From positions 1 through 64,000 of the forward strand of contig CANQCR010000002.1 in the NCBI GenBank assembly GCA_947589735.1: a stretch of DNA of 64,000 nucleotides. Direction: 5' to 3'. Within the stretch, counting starts at the first letter, position 1. Every line of letters begins with the position of its first letter. Both the position numbers and the translations under genes were made by a program. The notes below the pieces were generated by a model. That model was not told the origin of the DNA. It searched no databases and was given only the letters and a program-made list of their open reading frames with translations. Source of the DNA: an uncultured Bacilli bacterium. Lineage in GTDB: Bacteria > Bacillota_I > Bacilli_A > RF39 > UBA660. Of the stretch, positions 5,734-56,820 are shown one piece after another.

Positions 5734-6255
5734 ATGCTAAAATGGCTTTTCAAAGTAGGGATTGTAACCATTATTACCCTAGTTCTTTTAATATGTATTA
5801 AGAAAAGTAGTCATATTAAGAATTTTATTTATGATGAAGTGTATACCAAAAATATATCTTTTGCTAGTATTAATAATCTTTATAAAAAGTATTTTGGAAG
5901 TAATATTTTATTTGATGTTAAAGAAGATACCGCCCTTGTTTTTAATGAAAAATTAGAGTATTCAGAAAAGGTTAAAGATAAAGATGGTTTAAAATTAACA
6001 GTTGGTAAAGATTATCTTGTCCCTAATTTGGAAAGTGGTTTAGTCATATTTACGGGAGTAAAGGATGGCTATGGTAATGTTGTTATTGTTGAACAAATCG
6101 ACGGGGTTGATGTTTGGTATGGCAATCTCAGTAATATTAATGTTAAACTCTATGACTATCTTGAAAAAGGCGCTTTAATCGGTAATTGTGATGATAATCT
6201 TTATCTAGTTCATAAAAAGGATGGAGAAGTCTTGGATTATGAAAATAAGGTCTAA
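5734..6255 (+). CDS. spoIVFA: SpoIVFA-like regulator with degenerate M23 (LytM-like) domain
   Basis: In Bacillus SpoIVFA is a membrane protein that holds the intramembrane protease SpoIVFB inactive until signalled. Here an N-terminal membrane helix (about 5-24) is followed by a linker and a C-terminal beta-rich region resembling a peptidase M23 fold (LESGLVIFTGVKDGYGNVVIVEQ, then WYGNL where active M23 enzymes have an H-x-H). The zinc ligands are therefore missing, as in SpoIVFA. It is shorter (173 vs about 260 aa). Assignment rests mainly on its position directly before and overlapping the spoIVFB gene, and on rplU-prp-rpmA following nearby as in Bacillus. Confidence 0.75.
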   Translation: MLKWLFKVGIVTIITLVLLICIKKSSHIKNFIYDEVYTKNISFASINNLYKKYFGSNILFDVKEDTALVFNEKLEYSEKVKDKDGLKLTVGKDYLVPNLESGLVIFTGVKDGYGNVVIVEQIDGVDVWYGNLSNINVKLYDYLEKGALIGNCDDNLYLVHKKDGEVLDYENKV

Positions 6256-6946
6256 AATTTATATCCACCCCCTATATTATATCGTTTGGTTAATCGCTTT
6301 TTTAACCGGATATTTTAAAGCCTTTACGATTTATACTATCATTATTATTGTTCATGAATTAGGTCATATTTTTGCCGGATGGATTTTAAGATGGCCCATT
6401 TATCGAATAACGCTTTATCCATTTGGGGCCTTGACGACCTTTAATCATAAATTAAATTCTTCTACCCTTGAAGAATTTTTTGTTTTAATCTATGGCCCAT
6501 TATTTCAAATCCTATTCTATAAGTTATATCCCACGCCGTATCACCATTTTATTTTACTATTTAATTTACTGCCTATTTACCCTTTAGATGGATCGAAATT
6601 GCTTTTTTTATGTCTAAATAAGGTGTCAAGTTACTATACATCACACATTCTTATTTATCTATTTTCTTACCTTACTATTTTTATATTGATGGCATCTGAT
6701 GTTAATTTTCTTAATTATATTGTTTTACTTTACTTGACATATGACGTTTTTACATATTCAAAAGGTTTAAATGAAGTGATGCTTCAATTTTATTTTGAAA
6801 GATATAAAGATCCACCGCATTATCATCATTCACATCTCATTAAAGGACTTAAGATGAAGAAAATGTTTAAAGAGAAAAACAACTATTTCTTAGTTGATGA
6901 TAACTACTATTTAGAGACAGAAGTTCTTCGCCATTTTTTCATTTAA
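6239..6946 (+). CDS. spoIVFB: SpoIVFB-like M50 intramembrane metalloprotease
   Basis: Site-2-type protease; in Bacillus it cuts pro-sigma-K in the mother cell during sporulation. The zinc motif HELGH lies in a membrane helix (IIIIVHELGHIFAGWIL) and the second catalytic motif is NLLPIYPLDGSKLL, containing the third metal ligand Asp. KIYIHPLYY at the N-terminus matches the Bacillus start KIHVHPF. At 235 residues it is slightly shorter than Bacillus SpoIVFB (288) and the C-terminal CBS-like part is reduced. ORF track start 6221 moved to 6239, where GGAGAAG is 8 bases upstream. Overlaps spoIVFA by 17 bases, implying co-translation. Confidence 0.9.
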   Translation: MKIRSKIYIHPLYYIVWLIAFLTGYFKAFTIYTIIIIVHELGHIFAGWILRWPIYRITLYPFGALTTFNHKLNSSTLEEFFVLIYGPLFQILFYKLYPTPYHHFILLFNLLPIYPLDGSKLLFLCLNKVSSYYTSHILIYLFSYLTIFILMASDVNFLNYIVLLYLTYDVFTYSKGLNEVMLQFYFERYKDPPHYHHSHLIKGLKMKKMFKEKNNYFLVDDNYYLETEVLRHFFI

Positions 6947-6949
6947 ACT

Positions 6950-6978
6950 TTGACTTATATAAACTCTTGTATTATAAT
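6950..6978 (+). promoter_or_regulatory. Promoter of the paralogue pair
   Basis: TTGACT (6950-6955), 17-base spacer, TATAAT (6973-6978). It begins just after spoIVFB and decides that the next gene cannot start at the ORF-track position 6967, which lies inside this promoter. Confidence 0.75.
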
Positions 6979-6999
6979 ATGACAAGTTCGGTGATGCTT

Positions 7000-7551
7000 G
7001 TGAACATAATTATAAACTATGATTTTTGGGAACATATCTTAGATGTTCAAGAGGGAATAACAACCTTTAAAATTGTCCGCAATAATAAAAGAAAGTGGGC
7101 TAGATGGCATTTTCCTATTTATACTTTAGTCGATGCTTTAATACTTGAATCACTTGATAAGACGATTTTATGTCTAGTTATGCAATTTGGTGGACTAACA
7201 GCTGTTGAGTATATGGCGCAAAGATATTATGATGATGACCTATATGCTAAAATAGCTAAAAAGGATTTAACTCTTTTAGCGCAAAAACTTAATGATAATC
7301 ATATTAAAACTAGTTATCCTTTGCTATTAGATTCAAAGTATTACGATAAAGAGTGGCAAATCCACATTAATGAAAATAAACTACCCGAATGGATAGAGAA
7401 AAAGTATATTCTCGTTCCAACATATGCAGGTGATGGGGACATTCATAGTGTATCTATGGTTCAAAATCATGTCGTTGGATCTGATAGTTATGTTCTAACA
7501 TTAGGTTCACCAAAGAAAAGTGTTAGACCAATTTTAGCTAAGGGGGTATAA
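7000..7551 (+). CDS. Unknown membrane protein, paralogue family member 1
   Basis: Unrecognised. N-terminus VNIIINYDFWEHI, a central hydrophobic region (about 50-80: YTLVDALI, TILCLVMQFGGLTAV), a polar helix with LNDNHIKTS, and a C-terminal segment KLPEWIEKKYILVPTYAGDG then VQNHVVGSDSYVLTLG. The next gene shares all of these blocks and the gene at 8324 shares the two ends. I place the start at GTG 7000 because it aligns with MNIIINYD of paralogue 2 and because the promoter's -10 covers the upstream ATG; GGTGAT lies just before. Two base pairs separate it from paralogue 2. Function unknown. Confidence 0.8.
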   Translation: MNIIINYDFWEHILDVQEGITTFKIVRNNKRKWARWHFPIYTLVDALILESLDKTILCLVMQFGGLTAVEYMAQRYYDDDLYAKIAKKDLTLLAQKLNDNHIKTSYPLLLDSKYYDKEWQIHINENKLPEWIEKKYILVPTYAGDGDIHSVSMVQNHVVGSDSYVLTLGSPKKSVRPILAKGV

Positions 7552-7553
7552 GA

Positions 7554-8099
7554 ATGAATATTATTATTAATTATGATTTACTGGAAGAAATAAAAAACGC
7601 TAAGGAACATTTAAGTCCTTGGAAGCTTATGCGATGTAAAAGAAAAAAATTTTGCTTTTACTATGTACCTGCGATTACACTATTAAATAGTTTTTTGGTA
7701 GATGGTAGTGTACTTCCATCACTTATTTGTAGTTTAGGACTTGTTAGTATCTATGAAACCCTTCCTGAGATGCTTTCTAAAAGTGACGCTTATAGAGAGC
7801 GGGCTTACCGACGTCTTCCACGTTTAGCGAGACAAATGAATGATAATAATGTTAAGACTAGTGAAGAGTTGCTTCTTCGCTCTTGCCTTGATGCTAAAGA
7901 ATATCATTTTTACTGGAATGAAAATAAACTACCTGCTATTTTAGAACAAAAATATATTTTAGTACCGACCTATAGTGATGATGGTGAGAAAGATATGCCA
8001 ATTGTCCAAGAACATACAATTGGTACGAATCGTTACGTTTTATCAATCGGTCGGTATAACCGTGGTAAACGTTTATCTTTAGCCCATAATAATGGGTAA
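7554..8099 (+). CDS. Unknown membrane protein, paralogue family member 2
   Basis: Closest relative in the window is the preceding gene: MNIIINYDLLEEI at the N-terminus, hydrophobic centre (AITLLNSFL, SLICSLGLVSIYETL), MNDNNVKTSEELL, and C-terminal LPAILEQKYILVPTYSDDGE followed by VQEHTIGTNRYVLSIG. The arrangement suggests two membrane segments with both ends cytoplasmic, which is inference. AAGGGGG provides a strong ribosome-binding site. The gene ends exactly where the riboswitch promoter of the third paralogue begins. No known domain recognised. Confidence 0.8.
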   Translation: MNIIINYDLLEEIKNAKEHLSPWKLMRCKRKKFCFYYVPAITLLNSFLVDGSVLPSLICSLGLVSIYETLPEMLSKSDAYRERAYRRLPRLARQMNDNNVKTSEELLLRSCLDAKEYHFYWNENKLPAILEQKYILVPTYSDDGEKDMPIVQEHTIGTNRYVLSIGRYNRGKRLSLAHNNG

Positions 8100-8105
8100 A
8101 TAGCG

Positions 8106-8134
8106 TTGACAAAAAAGTAAGAATGTGATAGTAT
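8106..8134 (+). promoter_or_regulatory. Promoter of Mn2+ riboswitch 1
   Basis: TTGACA (8106-8111), 17 bases, extended -10 TGaTAGTAT (TAGTAT 8129-8134). Nearly the same promoter precedes riboswitch 2 near 56 kb. Confidence 0.8.
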
Positions 8135-8145
8135 ATGGCTTGCTT

Positions 8146-8260
8146 AAAGGGAGTAGTTCTCATTCTTCGGAATGTTTTAATCCGTCACTTCGGCTTTGCC
8201 CGGGTTAAAAGATACGCTAGTTATTGAACAAGACTTTTACAGAATAAGTAGGAGTCTTTT
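8146..8260 (+). promoter_or_regulatory. yybP-ykoY (Mn2+) riboswitch 1 with terminator
   Basis: The aptamer shows the family's two conserved internal loops and their flanking helix: AAAGGGAGTAG at the 5' side and GAACAAGACTTT at the 3' side, plus CCGTCA and CCCGGG in the middle helix. A CATTC-ttcg-GAATG hairpin forms one arm. The 3' strand of P1 (AAGACTTTTAC) can instead pair with GTAGGAGTCTT followed by TTTTTT, a terminator. Known members bind Mn2+ and metal stabilises P1, so metal should turn transcription on. A second hairpin (AACTTCT...AGAAGTT) follows at 8266-8293. Confidence 0.85.
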
Positions 8261-8265
8261 TTATT

Positions 8266-8293
8266 AAACTTCTACTTATGAGCAGAAGTTTTT
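8266..8293 (+). terminator. Second terminator-like hairpin in the riboswitch leader
   Basis: AAACTTCT pairs with AGAAGTTT and is followed by T residues, between the riboswitch terminator and the start of paralogue 3. It could reinforce termination or shape access to the ribosome-binding site GGAG. Confidence 0.4.
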
Positions 8294-8323
8294 CTTATTT
8301 ATATGATAGACTGGAGAATATAT

Positions 8324-9016
8324 ATGGTAACAATAAATTATGATTTAGTTAAAAAGATTAAGAAACATCGCCGTTTTTTAAAGCTTTATAATCGGGCTAT
8401 GCTAACCAAAGAAAAAAATAAAGATTTTTATATAAAGATTGATAAAACCTGCGATAATATTTTCAGTGAAATTGACATTGGAAATATCATCATTAGTAGT
8501 AAGGTTAGTGCGATAACATCACTCGTAATTTTAGTGTGCCTTATTAACAAGGTATGTTTAAAACATATCGCAAGGGAACAAATACCTATCGTTATCATGA
8601 CGGAGGGCAAAGCTATTTTGGCCATTTTAGGTGGTGTTGTAACAATTAATCTTGGTTTATCTTTTATTACTTTAACTAGTAATATCGTAAAGAAAAAAGT
8701 AGAAAAAGCGATAGTTGCCACCCAAGGAAAAACGGCTCATCCAACCTTTAAGTTAGATTTAACGAATCCTCATAGTGAAATAATGGTAACGAAAAAGAAA
8801 ATTAAATTTCAAAAAGATCATCAAAAAATTAAAACACCAATTATAGAAAAGCATCTTTATTGTAGAGTATTTGACGATAAATCAGCAAAGAGGAAGTATG
8901 CTGAAGTTATTCAAGAGCATAATTTAGGAGTAAAAAAATATAAATTAACTTTTAATGGTGTGTATGATACTTTAGAAGAATGTATAGATACTCAAAAAGT
9001 AAAAAAACTTAGTTAA
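8324..9016 (+). CDS. Unknown two-helix membrane protein under Mn2+ riboswitch, paralogue 3
   Basis: Starts MVTINYDLVKKI, matching the INYDL start of paralogues 1 and 2, and ends with a related segment IIEKHLYCR...VIQEHNLGVKKYKLTFNG. In between are two clear hydrophobic helices (VSAITSLVILVCLINKVCL; AILAILGGVVTINLGLSFITL). It is longer (230 aa) and Lys-rich. The ORF track starts at 8303; I prefer ATG 8324, with GGAG 8 bases upstream and agreement with the paralogues. No transporter family (MntP, TerC, P-type ATPase) typical of this riboswitch class is recognisable, so its role in metal handling is unproven. Confidence 0.78.
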   Translation: MVTINYDLVKKIKKHRRFLKLYNRAMLTKEKNKDFYIKIDKTCDNIFSEIDIGNIIISSKVSAITSLVILVCLINKVCLKHIAREQIPIVIMTEGKAILAILGGVVTINLGLSFITLTSNIVKKKVEKAIVATQGKTAHPTFKLDLTNPHSEIMVTKKKIKFQKDHQKIKTPIIEKHLYCRVFDDKSAKRKYAEVIQEHNLGVKKYKLTFNGVYDTLEECIDTQKVKKLS

Positions 9017-9033: not shown

Positions 9034-9063
9034 ATTGACAAACCAAGGCTTGTATGTTAAAAT
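9034..9063 (+). promoter_or_regulatory. Promoter of rplU-prp-rpmA
   Basis: TTGACA (9034-9039), 17 bases, then an AT-rich -10 (TGtTAAAAAT) with an extended TG element. The -10 hexamer is weak. Confidence 0.55.
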
Positions 9064-9070
9064 GTATTAA

Positions 9071-9150
9071 TGTGTAGGACCTCATTCTACAACCGCACAG
9101 AACAGGTTTAAAACGTAAGTACCTCAATGGCGAGTCTTAGATTATAAAGG
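9071..9150 (+). promoter_or_regulatory. Probable L21 ribosomal-protein leader
   Basis: The leader contains AGGACCTCATTCTACAACC, GCACAGAACAGG and AAGTACCTCAATGGCGAGTC just before the ribosome-binding site of rplU, in the position and with block order I associate with the Firmicutes L21 leader element, which is thought to mediate autoregulation. I did not fold it against a covariance model. Confidence 0.6.
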
Positions 9151-9158
9151 AGGATATT

Positions 9159-9455
9159 ATGAAAGCTGTTATTGAAACAGGTGGAAAACAATACTATGTT
9201 GAAGAAGGAACTGTTCTTTACATTGAAAAGCTAGATGTTGAAGCTGGTAAAGAAGTTGTTTTTGATAAAGTATTGATGTTAGATGGTAAGGCTGGTAACC
9301 CTTATATTAAAGGCGCTAAAGTTACAGCTGAAGTATTAAAGAATGGTAAGGCTAAAAAAGTTATCGTTTATAAATACAATCAAAAGAAAAATTATCATCG
9401 TACACAAGGACATCGTCAACCATACACCAAAGTTGAAATTAAGAAGATTAAGTAG
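9159..9455 (+). CDS. rplU: 50S ribosomal protein L21
   Basis: Small 23S-rRNA-binding protein of the large subunit. [17 protein letters not shown] at the N-terminus and the C-terminal [19 protein letters not shown] are diagnostic. Normal length (98 aa). Preceded by AAGGAGG. First gene of the conserved rplU-prp-rpmA operon, with 5 bases to prp. Confidence 0.97.
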
Positions 9456-10108: not shown

Positions 10109-11068
10109 TTAACTAACTTTTCCTTTTAATACTTTACAAATGGTTTCAATACATTTTTGTTTTTGGGATAATCTTGGATGTACATAAAGATTTAAGGTTA
10201 TATCAACACTAGCATGACCCAATAATTCACTTACAGTTTTATAATCCGTTCCTGCGCTGATACAGTTAGTGGCAAAAGTATGGCGAAGTGTATGAAACTT
10301 GAAATGATCTAGACCAATAAAATCAATTAATTTAGAAAAATAGCGACTATAAGAACGGGGTTCGATAGGTTTAAGTTTGCCAGATATTAGATAGCTATGA
10401 AGATTACTCGGTACATATTCTTTTAAAATATTTAAGATATCTTTACTAAGAGGAATATCGCGGTTGGCATTAACTGTTTTAGGCGAGGTGATGACTAATT
10501 TAGACAAAGCCTTATTTCCATCTTTAATATATATTCGCTGTATTGTTTTATTAATGGATATTGTTCCTTTTTTAAAATCGATGTCCTCCCATTTTAAAGC
10601 ACATACTTCGCCAATGCGAAGCCCTAAATATAATGATAATAAAATGCCAAGATTGCGATAATTCATATTATCAAGTAAATAATTAGTTAGAGTTACTTGT
10701 TCATCGTAAGATAATACATATAAACGATTCGCCTGTTTCTTGTTAGGATAGGCGAATGTTAAATCGATATAAGAAATGTATTTTTCACTCATCGCTTTTT
10801 TAAGGCTACTTTTAATAATGTTGGCAATATCTTTGATGGTTTTTAATGATAATCCCGCCTTTTTGTTATCAGATAAAGCTAGTAAAAAATCTTGAATTAT
10901 TTTATGGGTAATATCCTCTAAATAATATTTTCCTAGCATTGGAATAATATGGTTGAAAATATGGTTTGAGTAATTAGCATAGGTTGATTCTTTGACATAA
11001 TTTTTCTTATCTTTAAGCCATTCACATATCCAATTTTGGTAAAGTATTCTTTTTTTAAATATAATCAT
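10109..11068 (-). CDS. Tyrosine recombinase / phage-type integrase
   Basis: Site-specific recombinase of the lambda-integrase family. An N-terminal SAM-like core-binding domain (YANYSNHIFNHIIPMLG; LSLKTIKDI) precedes the catalytic domain with Arg I in GLRIGEVCAL, HxxR in FHTLRHTFATNC, LLGHASVDITLNLYVHP carrying the H/W and nucleophile Tyr. 319 residues, starting at MIIFKKR where AAAGGAGG lies 4 bases upstream (the ORF track starts at an earlier TTG). It stands alone: no excisionase, phage genes or repeats are visible beside it. It could serve a decayed element, DNA inversion, or host resolution, but XerC/D usually lack this longer Tn916-like N-terminus. Confidence 0.88.
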   Translation of the reverse strand: MIIFKKRILYQNWICEWLKDKKNYVKESTYANYSNHIFNHIIPMLGKYYLEDITHKIIQDFLLALSDNKKAGLSLKTIKDIANIIKSSLKKAMSEKYISYIDLTFAYPNKKQANRLYVLSYDEQVTLTNYLLDNMNYRNLGILLSLYLGLRIGEVCALKWEDIDFKKGTISINKTIQRIYIKDGNKALSKLVITSPKTVNANRDIPLSKDILNILKEYVPSNLHSYLISGKLKPIEPRSYSRYFSKLIDFIGLDHFKFHTLRHTFATNCISAGTDYKTVSELLGHASVDITLNLYVHPRLSQKQKCIETICKVLKGKVS

Positions 11069-11158
11069 ATTTCCTCCTTTCAAGGAATTTATTATATAAG
11101 AAGATTTAAAAGATTGGTGAGAGGAAAAAATTATGACATTTTTTTACAATTTACTTGT

Positions 11159-11210: not shown

Positions 11211-14200
11211 ATGAAGAAATTATTTCGAAGTCTATTAGCTTTAGCGTTAATATTTGGTTTATATGTCCCACAAGTTTTAGCTTTCCATCCTTTATTTAAT
11301 GAACCAATTAGTATTTTAGCGGAAGCTGATAGTTTGCTAAGTACATCTTTAGAACAACCATCATTCGTTGGAACAGGTAACTTGGAACTTGATTTAAAGT
11401 TTAGTTTACCAATTAAAAATGTTGCTAATCCTAATATTAAAGTAACTCTTAAAGATAGTGCGAATGCGTCTTTTACTATCGATCTAAATGATTATCCAAC
11501 GATGACACGGGATAATTATACTTTAGGTGATCAAAAGGGCGAGTTTTCTATTCGTAAGATGGAAGTTGTTACTAAAGAAGACGGCAATATAAGCTATGAA
11601 GACGTTAAAAATGGCGTTGATAGTAGCGATGTTAAGTATTATGCGATGACCATCTATGGTTTGCGCCAAGGAACTTATAGTGTAACTTTATCTGGTAATG
11701 GTTATAAAGATTACACGGTTACTGGCATTAAACTAGATGATTACGCTAAACGTGTTACCCTTTCAAATGATCGGGGATTATTTGAAGTAGGGGATGTCAA
11801 TGGTGATAACGCTGTCGATGAAAAAGATATCGATGGTATTATTGCGCATATCGGTAGTAAAGATGCCGCAGATTTAAATAAGTATGATTTAGATCGTGAT
11901 GGCGAGATTCAAATTAACGATATGGCAATGGCAGCTTCTAGTATCAATGGTGAAGTCGAAAAAGTATCAATTGAAAATACGATGGCCATTATCAGTGCTG
12001 ATAGTTTTAGTATTGATGAATCATCAACTTCTATCGATGGCGATATAGCTGATTTATTCACGCCAGATGGAAGTGTCGGAGTTCACCCAAGTGATACCGA
12101 AGCTGAAATATCTGAGGAAAATCCGGCTGTCATTTCCCTTGATATGAAAAAGCCTGTTGAAATGGGCGAAATTAGAATTGAAACAGGACACGATAATGTG
12201 CCTGAAGAAATGACCGTTATCGTTTTAGATGAAAACGATAAGGAACACGAGTTTAAAGTTGCAAAACAACAAGTAGAAGCGATAGCGCATAAGTTTACGG
12301 ATAAGAGTAGTGAAGGTACGATTGTTGTTGACTTAGAAGGCCAAATAGCTGTTAAAAAGGTAACAATTAAAATCACGAAATCATCAGGTAAAAACTTAGC
12401 GGAAATCGCTGAAGTGGAATTCTTAAACAATGTTAAAGAAGATGTGGCTCCACCTGAAATAAATATTCCAAGTGGCTTAAAAGCTAACTTAGGTAGTGAA
12501 CAAGTAACCCTTACTTGGAATGGTATTCCAAACGTTACGGGATATGAAGTATTATTCCAAACTTTAGATACTAGTGGTAATGTCACAAAGAATGAAATCT
12601 TACAGACAACCTATACGAATTATACGGTTGAAGATTTGAAAAATTATAAAGATTATCGCGCTGCTGTAAGAGGTGTTAATGGCGATTGGAAGGGTGCCTA
12701 TAGTGCTGGAATAGATTTCCAACCCAAAGCTAGTAGAAAACCTCCAGCACCCGATATGGTTAATGTAACACCAACTTTTGCCGGTTTAGATATTAGTTGG
12801 AAAGATATGAAAGATACCTTAACCTATAATATCTATTACCGAGCTTTAGGTGCTGAAGAGTTTGAAGAAATAAGAGAATATAAAGGAACAAGTTATAAAC
12901 TACGTAACTTACTTCCATCAACAGCTTACGAAGTTTATATTTCTGGTAATAACCCAAATGGTGAAGGAGCTCGCTCATTAAAAGCTAGTGGCACGACCCT
13001 TGCTGAAGGCGCTGCTATTACCCCTCAATATAAATTAATTAATAAGCCTAATGGTGGCGATATAACTAGTCATATTAAAGAAGTTGTATCAAGTCTAGGT
13101 ACGATGTCCAACGGCGATAATACCGCTTTAGTTGATGATGATTTCCATACTTATTGGGAACATACTGATTGGCAAGTAAATGCAAGCGCTAACTATTCTT
13201 TTGGAGCACCAATAATTGTTCTAGATCAAGAATATACAATGGACCGTTTTGCTTTAACTATACCTGATTCTTACACATTTAGTTATAAGGGTGGTTCTTA
13301 TGATCCTGATAGTAGAGATTATAACGATGTTAAAGTTTTCTACTGGAGTGGTGATGATGTAAGATCAACTCAAAATAGTACAATGGTTCATGGCACATTA
13401 GAGCTAAAAAAGGATAAGAATAATCGTTCTTATTATGTTTTAAAACTTCAAAAACCAATTAAAGCTAATGCAGTTCAATTTGGTATTACCGTTGCTAATA
13501 ATAAGAGCTTAATCCAAATTAGTGAAGTAAAACTATATGAATATGATTCTATCCTTGGCGATGTTAATGCGTTATTCACGGATGACTTGCATTTAGTTTT
13601 AGCTGATGATGTTAATGAAGCTCGTCTTAAAGAGCTAGAAGAACGTCTTAATACGATTGATAAAGAAAGTGGTGAGTATCATCCAGATAAGGCTGCTATT
13701 CAAGCTGATATTGACTATGCAAGACGTATCTTAAATGATGAAGATTTAAGTAAAGAAGTTATTACGGTTAACCAAAATATAACTGCTAAAAAACATACTG
13801 GCTTTAGTCAACTTAGTGAGTTACAACCTTTAGGTATTGTTGCTCGCCCTGGTGAGACGATTACCATTTATATGGGAACTGATACGAGTGTTCGTCCACA
13901 AGTTGTCTTTACGCAGTTTTATGCCGAAGCTGGTGGATGGAATGTAACTAAAGGAACCCTTAATAAAGGCGCTAATGTTATTGAAGTACCAAAAGTAAAT
14001 TCTATGGATGTTGATAAGGGCGGCGCTGTTTATATTAAATATCCTAATCAAGCACCAACGAAAGGAACGATTAAGATTAGAGTTAGTGGTGGCGAAAGAA
14101 TACCAATGCTAGATTTATATAGTAATCTATCTGATGAAGTTGAATCTAAGGCTATTATTAGTTCTTATCTAACAGATTTAAAGAATTATGTTCAAAAAAT

Positions 14201-16391
14201 TCGGGCAACCGATGGTTTTGATGAAAATCTTAGTGTTATTAACTCAACAGAAATAGGAACTAAGAATGCGTTATTCTCTGTTCCAGCTACTAAAGTATAC
14301 GATAGTATTATAAGCGGTATTGAAGGAGATACAACCGCTCAAATTAATCGTGTTTATAATTCATTATTGGCGTTTGAAGAAATGATGACGATTTTCTATA
14401 ATCATAAGGGCTTATCTTTAACGCCAGAAGAAAGTGTTGATATGGCTCCAGCATCAAGAATTAACATTCGGGCAATGCGGATGTTTGATGGCGCATTCAT
14501 GTATGCATCTGGTGATCACATCGGTATCGGTCAGGCATCAGTACCTGGCTTAATGCAAGGTATACCAAATCAAGGTACGGGTGCTGATATGACAACAACT
14601 GGTTACTTTGGTTGGGGTATCAGCCATGAGATTGGTCACCAAATCAATCAAGGTAATTTAGCTCATGCGGAAGTTACTAACAATGTCTTTGCTTTACTTG
14701 CGCAAACAAGTGATGATAAAACCGCTCCTCGTATCGCTGATCGAATGGACCGCATTTATCAGAAAGTAACATCTAATACTTTGGGTAAAGGAACAGATGT
14801 CTTTGTTACTTTAGCAATGTATTGGCAATTACATTTAGCTTATGATGATAATTATACTTTCAGTGATACAAACTCTATCTTTGCTAAAATAAATAAAGAG
14901 AGTAGAAGAGTAAATCAAGATGAAACATTAAAGAGTATGAGTAAAGATGAACTTCTTATTGCTCTTGCTAGTAAGGCGTCTGGTTATGACCTTAGAGAAT
15001 ACTATCGTCATTGGGGCCTTGCATCAACAGAAAAAGTTGATAGTTATATTGCGGGTCTAAATCTAAAGACGGAAGAAAGACCAATCTGGTATATCAATGA
15101 TAGTGCTAGAAGATATCGAATGAATGGTGGCGCTAAAACACCAGAGACGACATCAATTACGGCTTTCTTATCTGAAGAAGATCCACAAAATAAACGTTAC
15201 ACTTTAACTTTCAATCCAATTGATGGCTCTGATAGTCGTTATATCTTGGGTTATGAAATTAAACGTAATGGTGTACCAATTATGTTTACGACGGAAACGT
15301 CATTTACAGATGTTATTGGTGCTTTAAATAATCAAGCTCTTACATATGAAGTAACAGCTTATGATATGTATTTAAAACCAACTAATACCGTTAAGTTAAA
15401 AGAAGTTAAAGTAAGACACGATGGAAGCATTAATAAAGAAGGCTTTACTATCGAGTCTAACTTCAAACATAATGGTGAAGTTGTAAGCTATGAAGATGAA
15501 AGTTTTGATAGCAAGAAATTAAGTGTTAATAATCTATTAGATGGAAAAAATAGTACCTTCATTGGTGATACGAGAATTTCTGATAAAGAAGTTGAAACAG
15601 TTGATAAGGGCGACGCTAGTATCATTATTGATTTAAATAGTGCAATGTCCGTATCAGGTATTGCTTATACGGCTGGTACTGATGAAAATGGCCTTTTAGC
15701 TAACACTATTTCTAAGTATGCTATTTATGTAAGTAAAGATCGTAATACTTGGGATAAAGTAAAAGAAGGTACATTTGTTCTAAAAGAATCTAATAATTAT
15801 AAAAATACCATTTATTTTGACAAAATAGGTACAACTGGTGGTAACCAATTATGGACTTATAATGATATATCTTATATTAAGATTGTATCTGTCGGAAATA
15901 AAAATGGTATAAGTGGTGCGGAAATAGATGTTATTGCTCCTCCAGGCGATAATGTTGAATTAGATAATGTTGGTAAATTATCCAAAGATTATAAATATCA
16001 AGGCGAAGATGGAAGTGAGAAAACAATCGAAGCTGGCTCAATTGTCTTCACAGGTAATTATCGTGGTAATCCAACTTTCAACGTTATGTTGATGGTTGAT
16101 GCTACCAATGCTGAAAAAGTCTTTGATGGTGAAAACTTCTTATTTGCTAAATTAACAGACGATGGTAGTGTTAGTGAAGTTGCTGATGGTACTTGGTTCT
16201 ATGTCGTTAGTAAAGAAACTTATGAAGATATGCGTAAAGGTAGTGTTAGAGCCGAATTATATCGGGTAAATGATCCACATACTAATGATGGTGAACGCCT
16301 TACAAGTACATCACTTTCCTTAAGTGATTTAGCAGCTTATGAAGAACTTCCAGATTTAAATATTGTTGACTCTACTAAGGAGGTTTCATAG
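11211..16391 (+). CDS. Secreted M60-like zinc metallopeptidase, multidomain with dockerin-like segment
   Basis: Predicted exported protease of the M60/enhancin type, a group that cleaves mucin-like O-glycoproteins. Signal peptide (MKKLFRSLLALALIFGLYVP, cut near VLA). In order: N-terminal beta domain; dockerin-like pair of Ca-binding loops (GDVNGDNAVDEKD about 194-206; LDRDGEIQIND about 226-236); discoidin-like region (about 255-410); two fibronectin-III domains (about 418-600); discoidin-like region (about 620-780); M60 region starting near 860 (KKHTGFSQLSEL, PGETITIYMG) with HEIGH at 1139-1143 and downstream Glu in HAEVTNN; C-terminal discoidin-like region. No membrane anchor of its own. The next gene follows after one base with an AAGGAGG inside this gene's end. 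Confidence 0.9.
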   Translation: MKKLFRSLLALALIFGLYVPQVLAFHPLFNEPISILAEADSLLSTSLEQPSFVGTGNLELDLKFSLPIKNVANPNIKVTLKDSANASFTIDLNDYPTMTRDNYTLGDQKGEFSIRKMEVVTKEDGNISYEDVKNGVDSSDVKYYAMTIYGLRQGTYSVTLSGNGYKDYTVTGIKLDDYAKRVTLSNDRGLFEVGDVNGDNAVDEKDIDGIIAHIGSKDAADLNKYDLDRDGEIQINDMAMAASSINGEVEKVSIENTMAIISADSFSIDESSTSIDGDIADLFTPDGSVGVHPSDTEAEISEENPAVISLDMKKPVEMGEIRIETGHDNVPEEMTVIVLDENDKEHEFKVAKQQVEAIAHKFTDKSSEGTIVVDLEGQIAVKKVTIKITKSSGKNLAEIAEVEFLNNVKEDVAPPEINIPSGLKANLGSEQVTLTWNGIPNVTGYEVLFQTLDTSGNVTKNEILQTTYTNYTVEDLKNYKDYRAAVRGVNGDWKGAYSAGIDFQPKASRKPPAPDMVNVTPTFAGLDISWKDMKDTLTYNIYYRALGAEEFEEIREYKGTSYKLRNLLPSTAYEVYISGNNPNGEGARSLKASGTTLAEGAAITPQYKLINKPNGGDITSHIKEVVSSLGTMSNGDNTALVDDDFHTYWEHTDWQVNASANYSFGAPIIVLDQEYTMDRFALTIPDSYTFSYKGGSYDPDSRDYNDVKVFYWSGDDVRSTQNSTMVHGTLELKKDKNNRSYYVLKLQKPIKANAVQFGITVANNKSLIQISEVKLYEYDSILGDVNALFTDDLHLVLADDVNEARLKELEERLNTIDKESGEYHPDKAAIQADIDYARRILNDEDLSKEVITVNQNITAKKHTGFSQLSELQPLGIVARPGETITIYMGTDTSVRPQVVFTQFYAEAGGWNVTKGTLNKGANVIEVPKVNSMDVDKGGAVYIKYPNQAPTKGTIKIRVSGGERIPMLDLYSNLSDEVESKAIISSYLTDLKNYVQKIRATDGFDENLSVINSTEIGTKNALFSVPATKVYDSIISGIEGDTTAQINRVYNSLLAFEEMMTIFYNHKGLSLTPEESVDMAPASRINIRAMRMFDGAFMYASGDHIGIGQASVPGLMQGIPNQGTGADMTTTGYFGWGISHEIGHQINQGNLAHAEVTNNVFALLAQTSDDKTAPRIADRMDRIYQKVTSNTLGKGTDVFVTLAMYWQLHLAYDDNYTFSDTNSIFAKINKESRRVNQDETLKSMSKDELLIALASKASGYDLREYYRHWGLASTEKVDSYIAGLNLKTEERPIWYINDSARRYRMNGGAKTPETTSITAFLSEEDPQNKRYTLTFNPIDGSDSRYILGYEIKRNGVPIMFTTETSFTDVIGALNNQALTYEVTAYDMYLKPTNTVKLKEVKVRHDGSINKEGFTIESNFKHNGEVVSYEDESFDSKKLSVNNLLDGKNSTFIGDTRISDKEVETVDKGDASIIIDLNSAMSVSGIAYTAGTDENGLLANTISKYAIYVSKDRNTWDKVKEGTFVLKESNNYKNTIYFDKIGTTGGNQLWTYNDISYIKIVSVGNKNGISGAEIDVIAPPGDNVELDNVGKLSKDYKYQGEDGSEKTIEAGSIVFTGNYRGNPTFNVMLMVDATNAEKVFDGENFLFAKLTDDGSVSEVADGTWFYVVSKETYEDMRKGSVRAELYRVNDPHTNDGERLTSTSLSLSDLAAYEELPDLNIVDSTKEVS

Positions 16392-56024: not shown

Positions 56025-56035
56025 ATAGCCTGTTG

Positions 56036-56154
56036 AAAGGGAGTAGTTCTCATTCTTAGAATGGTTTTGGCTCGTCATTCCGGTTTTAATACCCGGGTCA
56101 AAAGATGTGTTATCGAACAAGACTTTTACACAATGGTGTGAAGTCTTGTTTTTT
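56036..56154 (+). promoter_or_regulatory. yybP-ykoY (Mn2+) riboswitch 2 with terminator
   Basis: Same architecture as riboswitch 1: AAAGGGAGTAGTTCTCATTC at the 5' side, CGTCA and ACCCGGGTCA in the centre, and CGAACAAGACTTTTAC at the 3' side. The expression platform is stronger: CAAGACTT-ttACAC-aatg-GTGTgAAGTCTTG followed by TTTTTT. Metal-stabilised P1 would use the ACTTT arm and prevent this hairpin, so Mn2+ should switch on the downstream gene. Confidence 0.87.
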
Positions 56155-56250: not shown

Positions 56251-56820
56251 ATGAAAACAAAAATTGTATTAAAAAGTGTGCATCCAGAAGAGTATGGGGA
56301 TATCGAAGTTGAATGTCGTGTTTTAGAAAGAGCTGATATACCAGCTTATATTGATACCATCCCAAAAACGGAAAAGTTTATGGGTGTTAAAGTAGCGCCA
56401 GTTGTAGCTAGACGTGCTACTCCAGGTGAAGTAATTCATACAATGCTTACTACCGAAATTGGTGGTAGATTATATTTATTATCTGAAGAATCTAATACGG
56501 CTAGAGAAGGGGATTATGTTGTAACTAATGTTGGTAGTACATCCAACGAACAATATATCGTTCGTGGTGAGAAGTTTGCCAAAATGTATGAAGCTAATGC
56601 AGATGGAACATTTACACCTGTTCCTGATCCTAGAATGTTAACAAGAGTACCAGAAAATATTATGTTTACAACATCTTGGGGTGCTCCAGCTATATGTTTA
56701 ATGGGATCATTCCTTGTTACATATAGTCCAACATCATTTAATACCCTTGAAAAAGATGCCTTTGCTAAAACTTATGCCCCTTATGTACCATCAAATCCAG
56801 AAAAGAAACTAATAGGTTAA
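56251..56820 (+). CDS. Unknown soluble protein under Mn2+ riboswitch 2
   Basis: 189 residues, no signal peptide or membrane segment. Noticeable segments are VAPVVARRATPGEVIHTML, SNTAREGDYVVTNVGSTS and FTTSWGAPAICLMGSFLVTY; the GDYVVTN portion recalls PGDYG-like domains, but I cannot assign it. It is not one of the transporters usually controlled by this riboswitch class. Start ATG 56251 follows AAAAGGAG (ORF track 56242 is a GTG inside that site). Followed by its own terminator. Confidence 0.8.
   Translation: MKTKIVLKSVHPEEYGDIEVECRVLERADIPAYIDTIPKTEKFMGVKVAPVVARRATPGEVIHTMLTTEIGGRLYLLSEESNTAREGDYVVTNVGSTSNEQYIVRGEKFAKMYEANADGTFTPVPDPRMLTRVPENIMFTTSWGAPAICLMGSFLVTYSPTSFNTLEKDAFAKTYAPYVPSNPEKKLIG

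Follow-up and report, generated by a model that had tools for sequence, protein, structure and literature searches.

The 64,000-nucleotide stretch of DNA analyzed here (the window) opens contig CANQCR010000002.1 of an uncultured Bacilli bacterium (GenBank assembly GCA_947589735.1), and between spoIVFB and rplU it carries three related plus-strand genes, designated A, B, and C, that are predicted to encode membrane proteins; gene C is preceded by a riboswitch of the yybP-ykoY (Mn2+) class. The spoIVFB open reading frame (ORF; 6221-6946) is followed by a predicted sigma-70-like promoter site (TTGACT-17-TATAAT, 6950-6978, plus strand, 11 of 12 consensus bases), and behind this one ordinary promoter-like site lie gene A (7000-7551, GTG start, 183 amino acids [aa]) and gene B (7554-8099, 181 aa), separated by 2 bp. 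A further promoter-like site (TTGACA-17-TAGTAT with TG before the second hexamer, 8106-8134, plus strand, 10 of 12 consensus bases), the riboswitch aptamer (8141-8243, plus strand), a folded intrinsic terminator of 11 pairs with a T tract (8230-8258, plus strand), and gene C (8324-9016, 230 aa, with a longer middle part) come next, and then the rplU promoter-like site (9035-9063), the L21 leader (9081-9147), and rplU itself (9159-9455).

The initial annotation of this DNA had placed the three genes at these positions and in these frames, correctly, and had described them as an insertion into a spoIVFA-spoIVFB-rplU-prp-rpmA order. That order is uninterrupted in the genus member G011, where the rplU region directly follows spoIVFB. 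The claim that A and B share one promoter while C has its own riboswitch agrees with the promoter-like sites, the terminator, and an independent covariance model, and A-B and riboswitch-C are supported as separate transcription units. Promoter-like sites are not enriched as a class (13 in the scan versus 12.2 expected from shuffles), and their assignment rests on the high consensus match and on position; terminator-like sites numbered 2 versus 0.7 expected.

Relationship of A, B, and C

Judged by sequence comparison, A and B are clearly paralogues, with a similarity far above chance (BLASTP, 37% identity across 181 aa, E 7e-40). The pairwise match of C to B is marginal (BLASTP, E 6e-4 over 58 aa), and that of C to A has an E-value of 0.27. 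Profile comparison (hhalign) of 16 A/B-type proteins with C and three C/D relatives gave a probability of 95.8% and an E-value of 6.7e-9 in the C-terminal block; the C/D set consists of C, its orthologue in genome G004, and two D proteins, D being a further relative carried by G003 and G004. Besides the window's own C, a profile of C/D proteins only retrieved three genes (in G098, G228, and G321) from 372 genomes of the window's GTDB family, and all three overlap A/B-type genes that an independent search had found. Because of this recovery and the hhalign match, C can be regarded as a confirmed, diverged but genuine third member.

The family profile (A1) is defined by an N-terminal INYD, a hydrophobic middle, and a C-terminal QEH..G..Y, all present in C. 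Among 36 members, M1, D8, L88, L91, and H154 are invariant, and N6, Y7, T102, and K133 are kept in 35. The shared INYDL start, double hydrophobic center, and end motif of the initial annotation are on the whole confirmed. The A/B paralogy and the profile membership of C uphold the shared blocks, and the E-values of A with B and of C in hhalign speak against chance as their source. The KYILVPTY part of the end motif is degenerate in C (EKHLYCRVFD where the family has EKKYILVPTY), with QEH..G..Y retained, and two hydrophobic segments pass the cut-off in 16 of the 36 A/B-type members and in C, but not in A or B. Every compared orthologue pair of A, B, C, and D is under purifying selection, with ratios of nonsynonymous to synonymous substitution rates (dN/dS) of 0.12-0.34. 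For A, identity to the G003 and G004 orthologues is 67% (dN/dS 0.17) and 79% (dN/dS 0.12), for B, dN/dS is 0.20-0.26, and C shares 73% identity with its G004 orthologue (dN/dS 0.19).

A match to a known family was accepted when it exceeded the curated cut-off (Pfam and NCBIfam) or, in PHROGs, where there is no cut-off, when its E-value was strong. A, B, C, and the family members matched no sequence family of Pfam, NCBIfam, PHROGs, or the PDB. The best Pfam values for A to C and 16 members were all above 0.03, in NCBIfam the window's A, B, and C reached at best 0.0077 (MPN565, 15.9 bits against a cut-off of 130), and the best PHROG value among the 36 members was 0.0035; the NCBIfam and PHROG matches, weak and each confined to a single member, were discarded. 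The viral fold library yielded nothing under E 0.05, and literature searches found no report of the protein family and named none of its motifs. The profile and sequence searches thus bear out the earlier statement that no known family fits, and A, B, and C appear to form a previously unrecognized, lineage-restricted family of membrane proteins.

Predicted structure and topology

The AlphaFold2 model of B, computed on 36 sequences, is confident (mean predicted local distance difference test [pLDDT] 90.1, predicted template modeling score [pTM] 0.80). It contains strand 2-5, helices 9-17, 22-28, 30-48, 53-75, and 79-97, and strands 111-121, 127-141, 144-155, and 161-165, with helices 30-48 and 53-75 coinciding with the hydrophobic center. 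According to this confident model, B would consist of a short two-helix membrane hairpin and a soluble domain made of both termini. In the 16 of 36 members with both hydrophobic segments, lysine plus arginine averages 7.0 ahead of the segments, 0.8 between them, and 4.0 within the next 25 residues, and because of this distribution the positive-inside rule would place both ends inside and the soluble domain in the cytoplasm. A hydropathy scan of C marks segments 63-79 and 98-114.

Foldseek of the B model against the PDB found nothing under E 0.001; the best value, 0.014, was to a fold other than NTF2-like or MOG1-like. VIA-align scores, which below Z 8 may reflect merely a common arrangement, reached at most Z 4.4 with mixed folds, including DotI (Z 4.1) and TraM (Z 4.0), which we take to be VirB8-like/NTF2-like domains, and SciW (Z 4.0), presumably MOG1-PsbP-like. 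Unrelated folds also occur at Z 4, and a fold assignment for B was dropped.

Riboswitch upstream of gene C

Covariance model R1 was built from 12 of 13 RF00080 copies of other Bacilli families (one was omitted for a long insert), with the structure taken from the fold of one copy and no sequence of the window's GTDB family used. It reports 8141-8243 at 38.1 bits (E 2.1e-7), where background in the window begins at 10.4 bits. The copies in G003 and G004 score 47.2 and 40.0 bits, and no further match in 155,999 bases exceeds 15.2 bits. Within the genus, 13 matches at E <=5e-6 occur in 8 of 12 genomes, three of them in the window's genome (G000), followed by a gap to 0.15. Across 26 copies, the window's included, 86.4% of cells are paired and 30 of 33 pairs have changed on both sides, counts that are biased toward the model since the alignment was fitted to it; none of 500 shuffles reaches any of the measures, and slid controls are far lower.

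The P1-P4 paired architecture is conserved with covariation, loop L1 is GGGAGUAG (GGGAGUA type), and loop L3 is UCACUUC, with the equivalent of the Mn-contacting adenosine at 8187. By sequence, structure, and covariation, the element belongs to the yybP-ykoY class. The earlier call of a Mn2+-class riboswitch before C, at first doubted for lack of an Rfam match, is supported by the independently built R1, the covariation, and the loop sequences. The terminator overlaps the 3' strand of helix P1 and would act as the expression platform; this overlap is intact in G000, G003, and G004, whose elements are 85-91% identical (87% on average). The minimum-energy fold of the G004 copy follows the same plan as that of L137, a copy from another family.

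RF00080 matched 10 of 198 Bacilli genomes, at 19-34 bits and several with exporter-type genes downstream; none reached the cut-off and none belonged to the window's GTDB family. The cut-off was reached in 2 of 14 control genomes. In the window's GTDB family it was reached in 0 of 145 genomes, although exporter-linked copies exist there. Because RF00080 misses copies in low-GC gut Bacilli, Mn2+ regulons are probably underannotated in them.

Probable ligand and direction of the switch

The Mn-contacting adenosine is A41 of UCA41AU43UC in Lactococcus lactis and A48 of ACA48UACU in Xanthomonas (PMC6754395). The three corresponding L3 bases are UCA in 31, ACA in 19, AUA in 2, and ACU in 2 of 54 aligned copies, so that 52 copies, the window's among them, keep the adenosine. 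The L. lactis switch is described as Mn2+-specific and ON, its P1.1 opposing a terminator (PMC9190785). Because the adenosine is kept and the terminator overlaps P1 as in L. lactis, Mn2+ is most likely the ligand of the 8141-8243 element, with ON control of C. In L3 most other Bacilli copies have UCAACA, unlike the window copy, and a changed-ligand variant was considered as the leading interpretation for that reason; since L. lactis itself has UCAAUUC, it was retained only as a rival.

Two other elements of the set, at 1501-1600 of loci L197 and L198, have ACU in L3, with U at the position of the Mn-contacting adenosine; downstream of the L197 copy lies a lipoprotein-like gene. Both are candidates for a changed ligand, as read from their loop sequences. 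According to a review of former orphan riboswitches, the genes behind some yybP RNAs are at odds with manganese sensing, the ligand of these RNAs may have changed, and some variants probably sense other ions (PMC7266159).

Genes downstream of the riboswitch class in the lineage

Model R2, trained on the 26 copies, detected the element in 32 genomes among the 359 searched, and in 20 of 150 genera. In the GTDB family, 40 loci (13 from the genus R1 search and 27 from the R2 search) with 41 aligned elements were read; R2 matches without a locus of their own were left out, and the choice of the downstream ORF was mechanical. Unexpectedly, the elements stand mostly before orphan or non-transport genes. 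Cation exporters are the first downstream ORF at 6 of the 40 loci (Na/Ca-exchanger type at five, P-type ATPase at one). The others include one ABC protein, three C/D genes, two S-adenosylmethionine decarboxylases, two deoxyribosyltransferase-like proteins, single peptide deformylase, NfeD, and Band 7 proteins, one transglutaminase-like protein (a sub-threshold match), seven PGDYG-like proteins (BLAST connects five, and two were grouped by eye), four homologous orphans, and three related lipoprotein-like proteins; the remaining ORFs are unassigned.

This range of genes, together with the statement in the review that yybP variants with altered metal specificity are expected (PMC7266159), favors a reading in which the riboswitch falls in a yybP subgroup responsive to a different divalent ion or to a broader physiological condition, with C serving general adaptation as part of a regulon and not manganese detoxification. 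We consider this doubtful, though it deserves attention, given that neither the Mn-contacting adenosine nor the GGGAGUA loop has been lost, that the same loop type (..GUCA) precedes Na/Ca-exchanger-type genes in the same GTDB family (L145, L178, and L192), and that the window L3 is identical at 6 of 7 positions to that of the crystallized L. lactis Mn2+ aptamer. A broader proposal, tentative and somewhat short of an even chance, is that the lineage's yybP-class riboswitch serves as a general metal signal, through which manganese or a related ion would cue the physiology of the cell beyond triggering efflux, and switches a large and changing set of orphan and non-transport genes, the hairpin family included. 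With 41 copies aligned and several gene families recurring behind them, the lineage offers a compact set for testing ligand change.

The window holds a second riboswitch of the class (56031-56132, plus strand, R1 53.2 bits, E 2.7e-11), followed by an orphan gene (56251-56820, plus strand; start codon chosen from the ribosome-binding site) with a subthreshold match to Pfam PGDYG (PF14083, E 0.011, 16.5 bits against a cut-off of 27). Downstream of it, 56902-57177 matches Pfam Spore-coat_CotD (E 8.2e-6). The approximately 1.1-Mb genome G378 has six riboswitches of the class, including a pair on contig C3 that is separated by about 600 bases and lies within L175. The two S-adenosylmethionine decarboxylase genes under the class (L172 and L193) lie in two genera, a possible link between manganese and polyamines.

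Pairing of the riboswitch with C/D genes

The link between the protein family and the riboswitch is confined to the C/D genes of G000, G003, and G004. Among these genomes, the synonymous divergence (dS) of SpoIVFB, A, B, C, and D is 0.67-1.46, RplU being the exception with 0.25. Since the riboswitch and the C/D gene persist together in three species while synonymous sites have strongly diverged, sequence conservation argues for the pairing being in use.

The C element is 90% identical to a copy on contig C12 of its own genome and 85% to the orthologous G004 copy, a resemblance showing that these elements duplicate from one locus to another. Such duplication would also be expected had a riboswitch-promoter cassette been copied by chance before an unrelated gene, with Mn2+ control of C lacking adaptive meaning; we hold this to be improbable, as the element and the C/D gene have stayed together in the three species over that divergence and the terminator-P1 overlap is intact in each of them.

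Distribution of the family and its locus

With B alone as query, 13 of 96 relatives matched, its own genome included, and 0 of 39 genomes from other families of the class. Within the GTDB family, the family profile matched 34 of 386 genomes, in 28 of 150 genera. A class-wide draw gave 5 of 296 genomes, of which three are of the same GTDB family (the window's own included); the two marginal matches were rejected, one having internal stops and the other covering 64 positions at E 0.0096. On these searches the family is scattered through a single GTDB family of uncultivated gut Bacilli, with no credible match outside it. All 33 loci of a related-locus search come from uncultured or metagenome-assembled bacterial records, with titles including uncultured Bacilli bacterium and Candidatus Pelethosoma merdigallinarum, and several sample names suggest rabbit (Lapin), sheep, or goat.

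The insertion is seen in 6 of 12 genus members (G000, G003, G004, G006, G007, and G008), each with A/B-type genes between spoIVFB and rplU. A different 333-aa ORF occupies this place in G002, the family member of G010 lies elsewhere, rplU is preceded by another large ORF in G010 and G001, the G005 contig starts just upstream of rplU, and rplU was not found in G009. In other genera, the family gene is mostly solitary, with one tandem pair, and neighbor clustering found no neighbor recurrent across genera.

The sporadic distribution, the lack of conserved neighbors outside the genus, and a solitary tyrosine recombinase nearby would suit a family of accessory island genes (defense, immunity, or mobile-element cargo), for which the spoIVFB-rplU place and the manganese switch are incidental. 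The recombinase gene (10109-11083, minus strand; Phage_integrase E 5.6e-28) lies directly after rpmA and is convergent to it. We regard this origin as improbable. No relatives were found in viral contigs or phages, and the position beside rplU is stable in half of the genus members. PADLOC, run on 21 members, gave one PDC-M50A match to a single member (19 bits, E 3.1e-4, in the helical part of C), taken as an effect of composition, and three weaker matches, each to a single member. Farther downstream, the window encodes a 1726-aa protein (11211-16391) with Peptidase_M60 (enhancin-like), F5/8 type C, fibronectin III, and dockerin-like matches, which is probably a secreted protease acting on mucin or glycoprotein.

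Proposed role of the family

In the explanation we favor, A, B, and C would be small proteins anchored in the cytoplasmic membrane through two transmembrane helices that form a hairpin, and the N-terminal strand (NYD motif) and the C-terminal beta meander (KYI.VPTY and QEH..GS..Y) probably come together as a single domain in the cytoplasm. A and B would be coproduced from an ordinary promoter, and C would have been placed, or kept, under the yybP-ykoY-class riboswitch. Mn2+ bridging L1 and L3 would stabilize P1 and prevent the overlapping terminator, the two structures presumably being mutually exclusive, so that C is made at high cytoplasmic Mn2+. Having just two hydrophobic helices, C would most likely act in the response to Mn2+ excess as an accessory membrane protein and not as a transporter, providing a membrane-bound domain for binding, regulation, or an adaptor function. 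This accessory role is a conjecture and the most economical guess at the task of C; to the explanation as a whole we give an even chance.

Several observations weigh against it. RF00080 does not report the element before C at the gathering score or at E 10, in the window or in the genome, and the single-sequence fold of the window copy differs in part and lacks the complete four-way junction that the G004 copy has. The AlphaFold model of C is poor (mean pLDDT 65.2). Most copies of the class in the lineage precede genes without an evident manganese role, and the ligand could differ. At 44 loci with family members in other genera, some of them the same place held in two collections, no riboswitch was found (best 14.3 bits, E 2.2). 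The role in metal homeostasis suggested by the initial annotation accordingly fits the C/D branch only and is not supported for the whole family, whose A/B genes have an ordinary promoter and whose members in other genera have no riboswitch; for the envelope stress role suggested alongside it, no finding speaks. The locus adds an unrecognized membrane-protein family open to expression and study, and the riboswitch of C is a hint that unusual genes of the lineage may be under manganese control.

Comparison with known systems

The closest counterpart of the element before C is the yoaB riboswitch of L. lactis (RF00080), yoaB being a P-type ATPase gene. The two share the L1 loop GGGAGUA, the overlap of P1 with the terminator, and the four-helix architecture, and their L3 loops are UCAAUUC in L. 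lactis and UCACUUC in the window. Unlike the yoaB element, the window copy escapes the RF00080 model and precedes an orphan membrane protein gene. In Escherichia coli, the leaders of mntP and alx belong to the same riboswitch class and are likewise associated with Mn2+-induced membrane proteins (PMC9603457, PMC11647493). The mntP switch is described as translational. MntP is an efflux protein, whereas C has two hydrophobic segments only. On the protein side, the NTF2-like VirB8-TraM-DotI group and the MOG1-PsbP-like SciW show a weak fold resemblance to the B model, a lead at most, and in contrast to these domains the proteins described here are predicted to have a membrane hairpin inserted within the domain.

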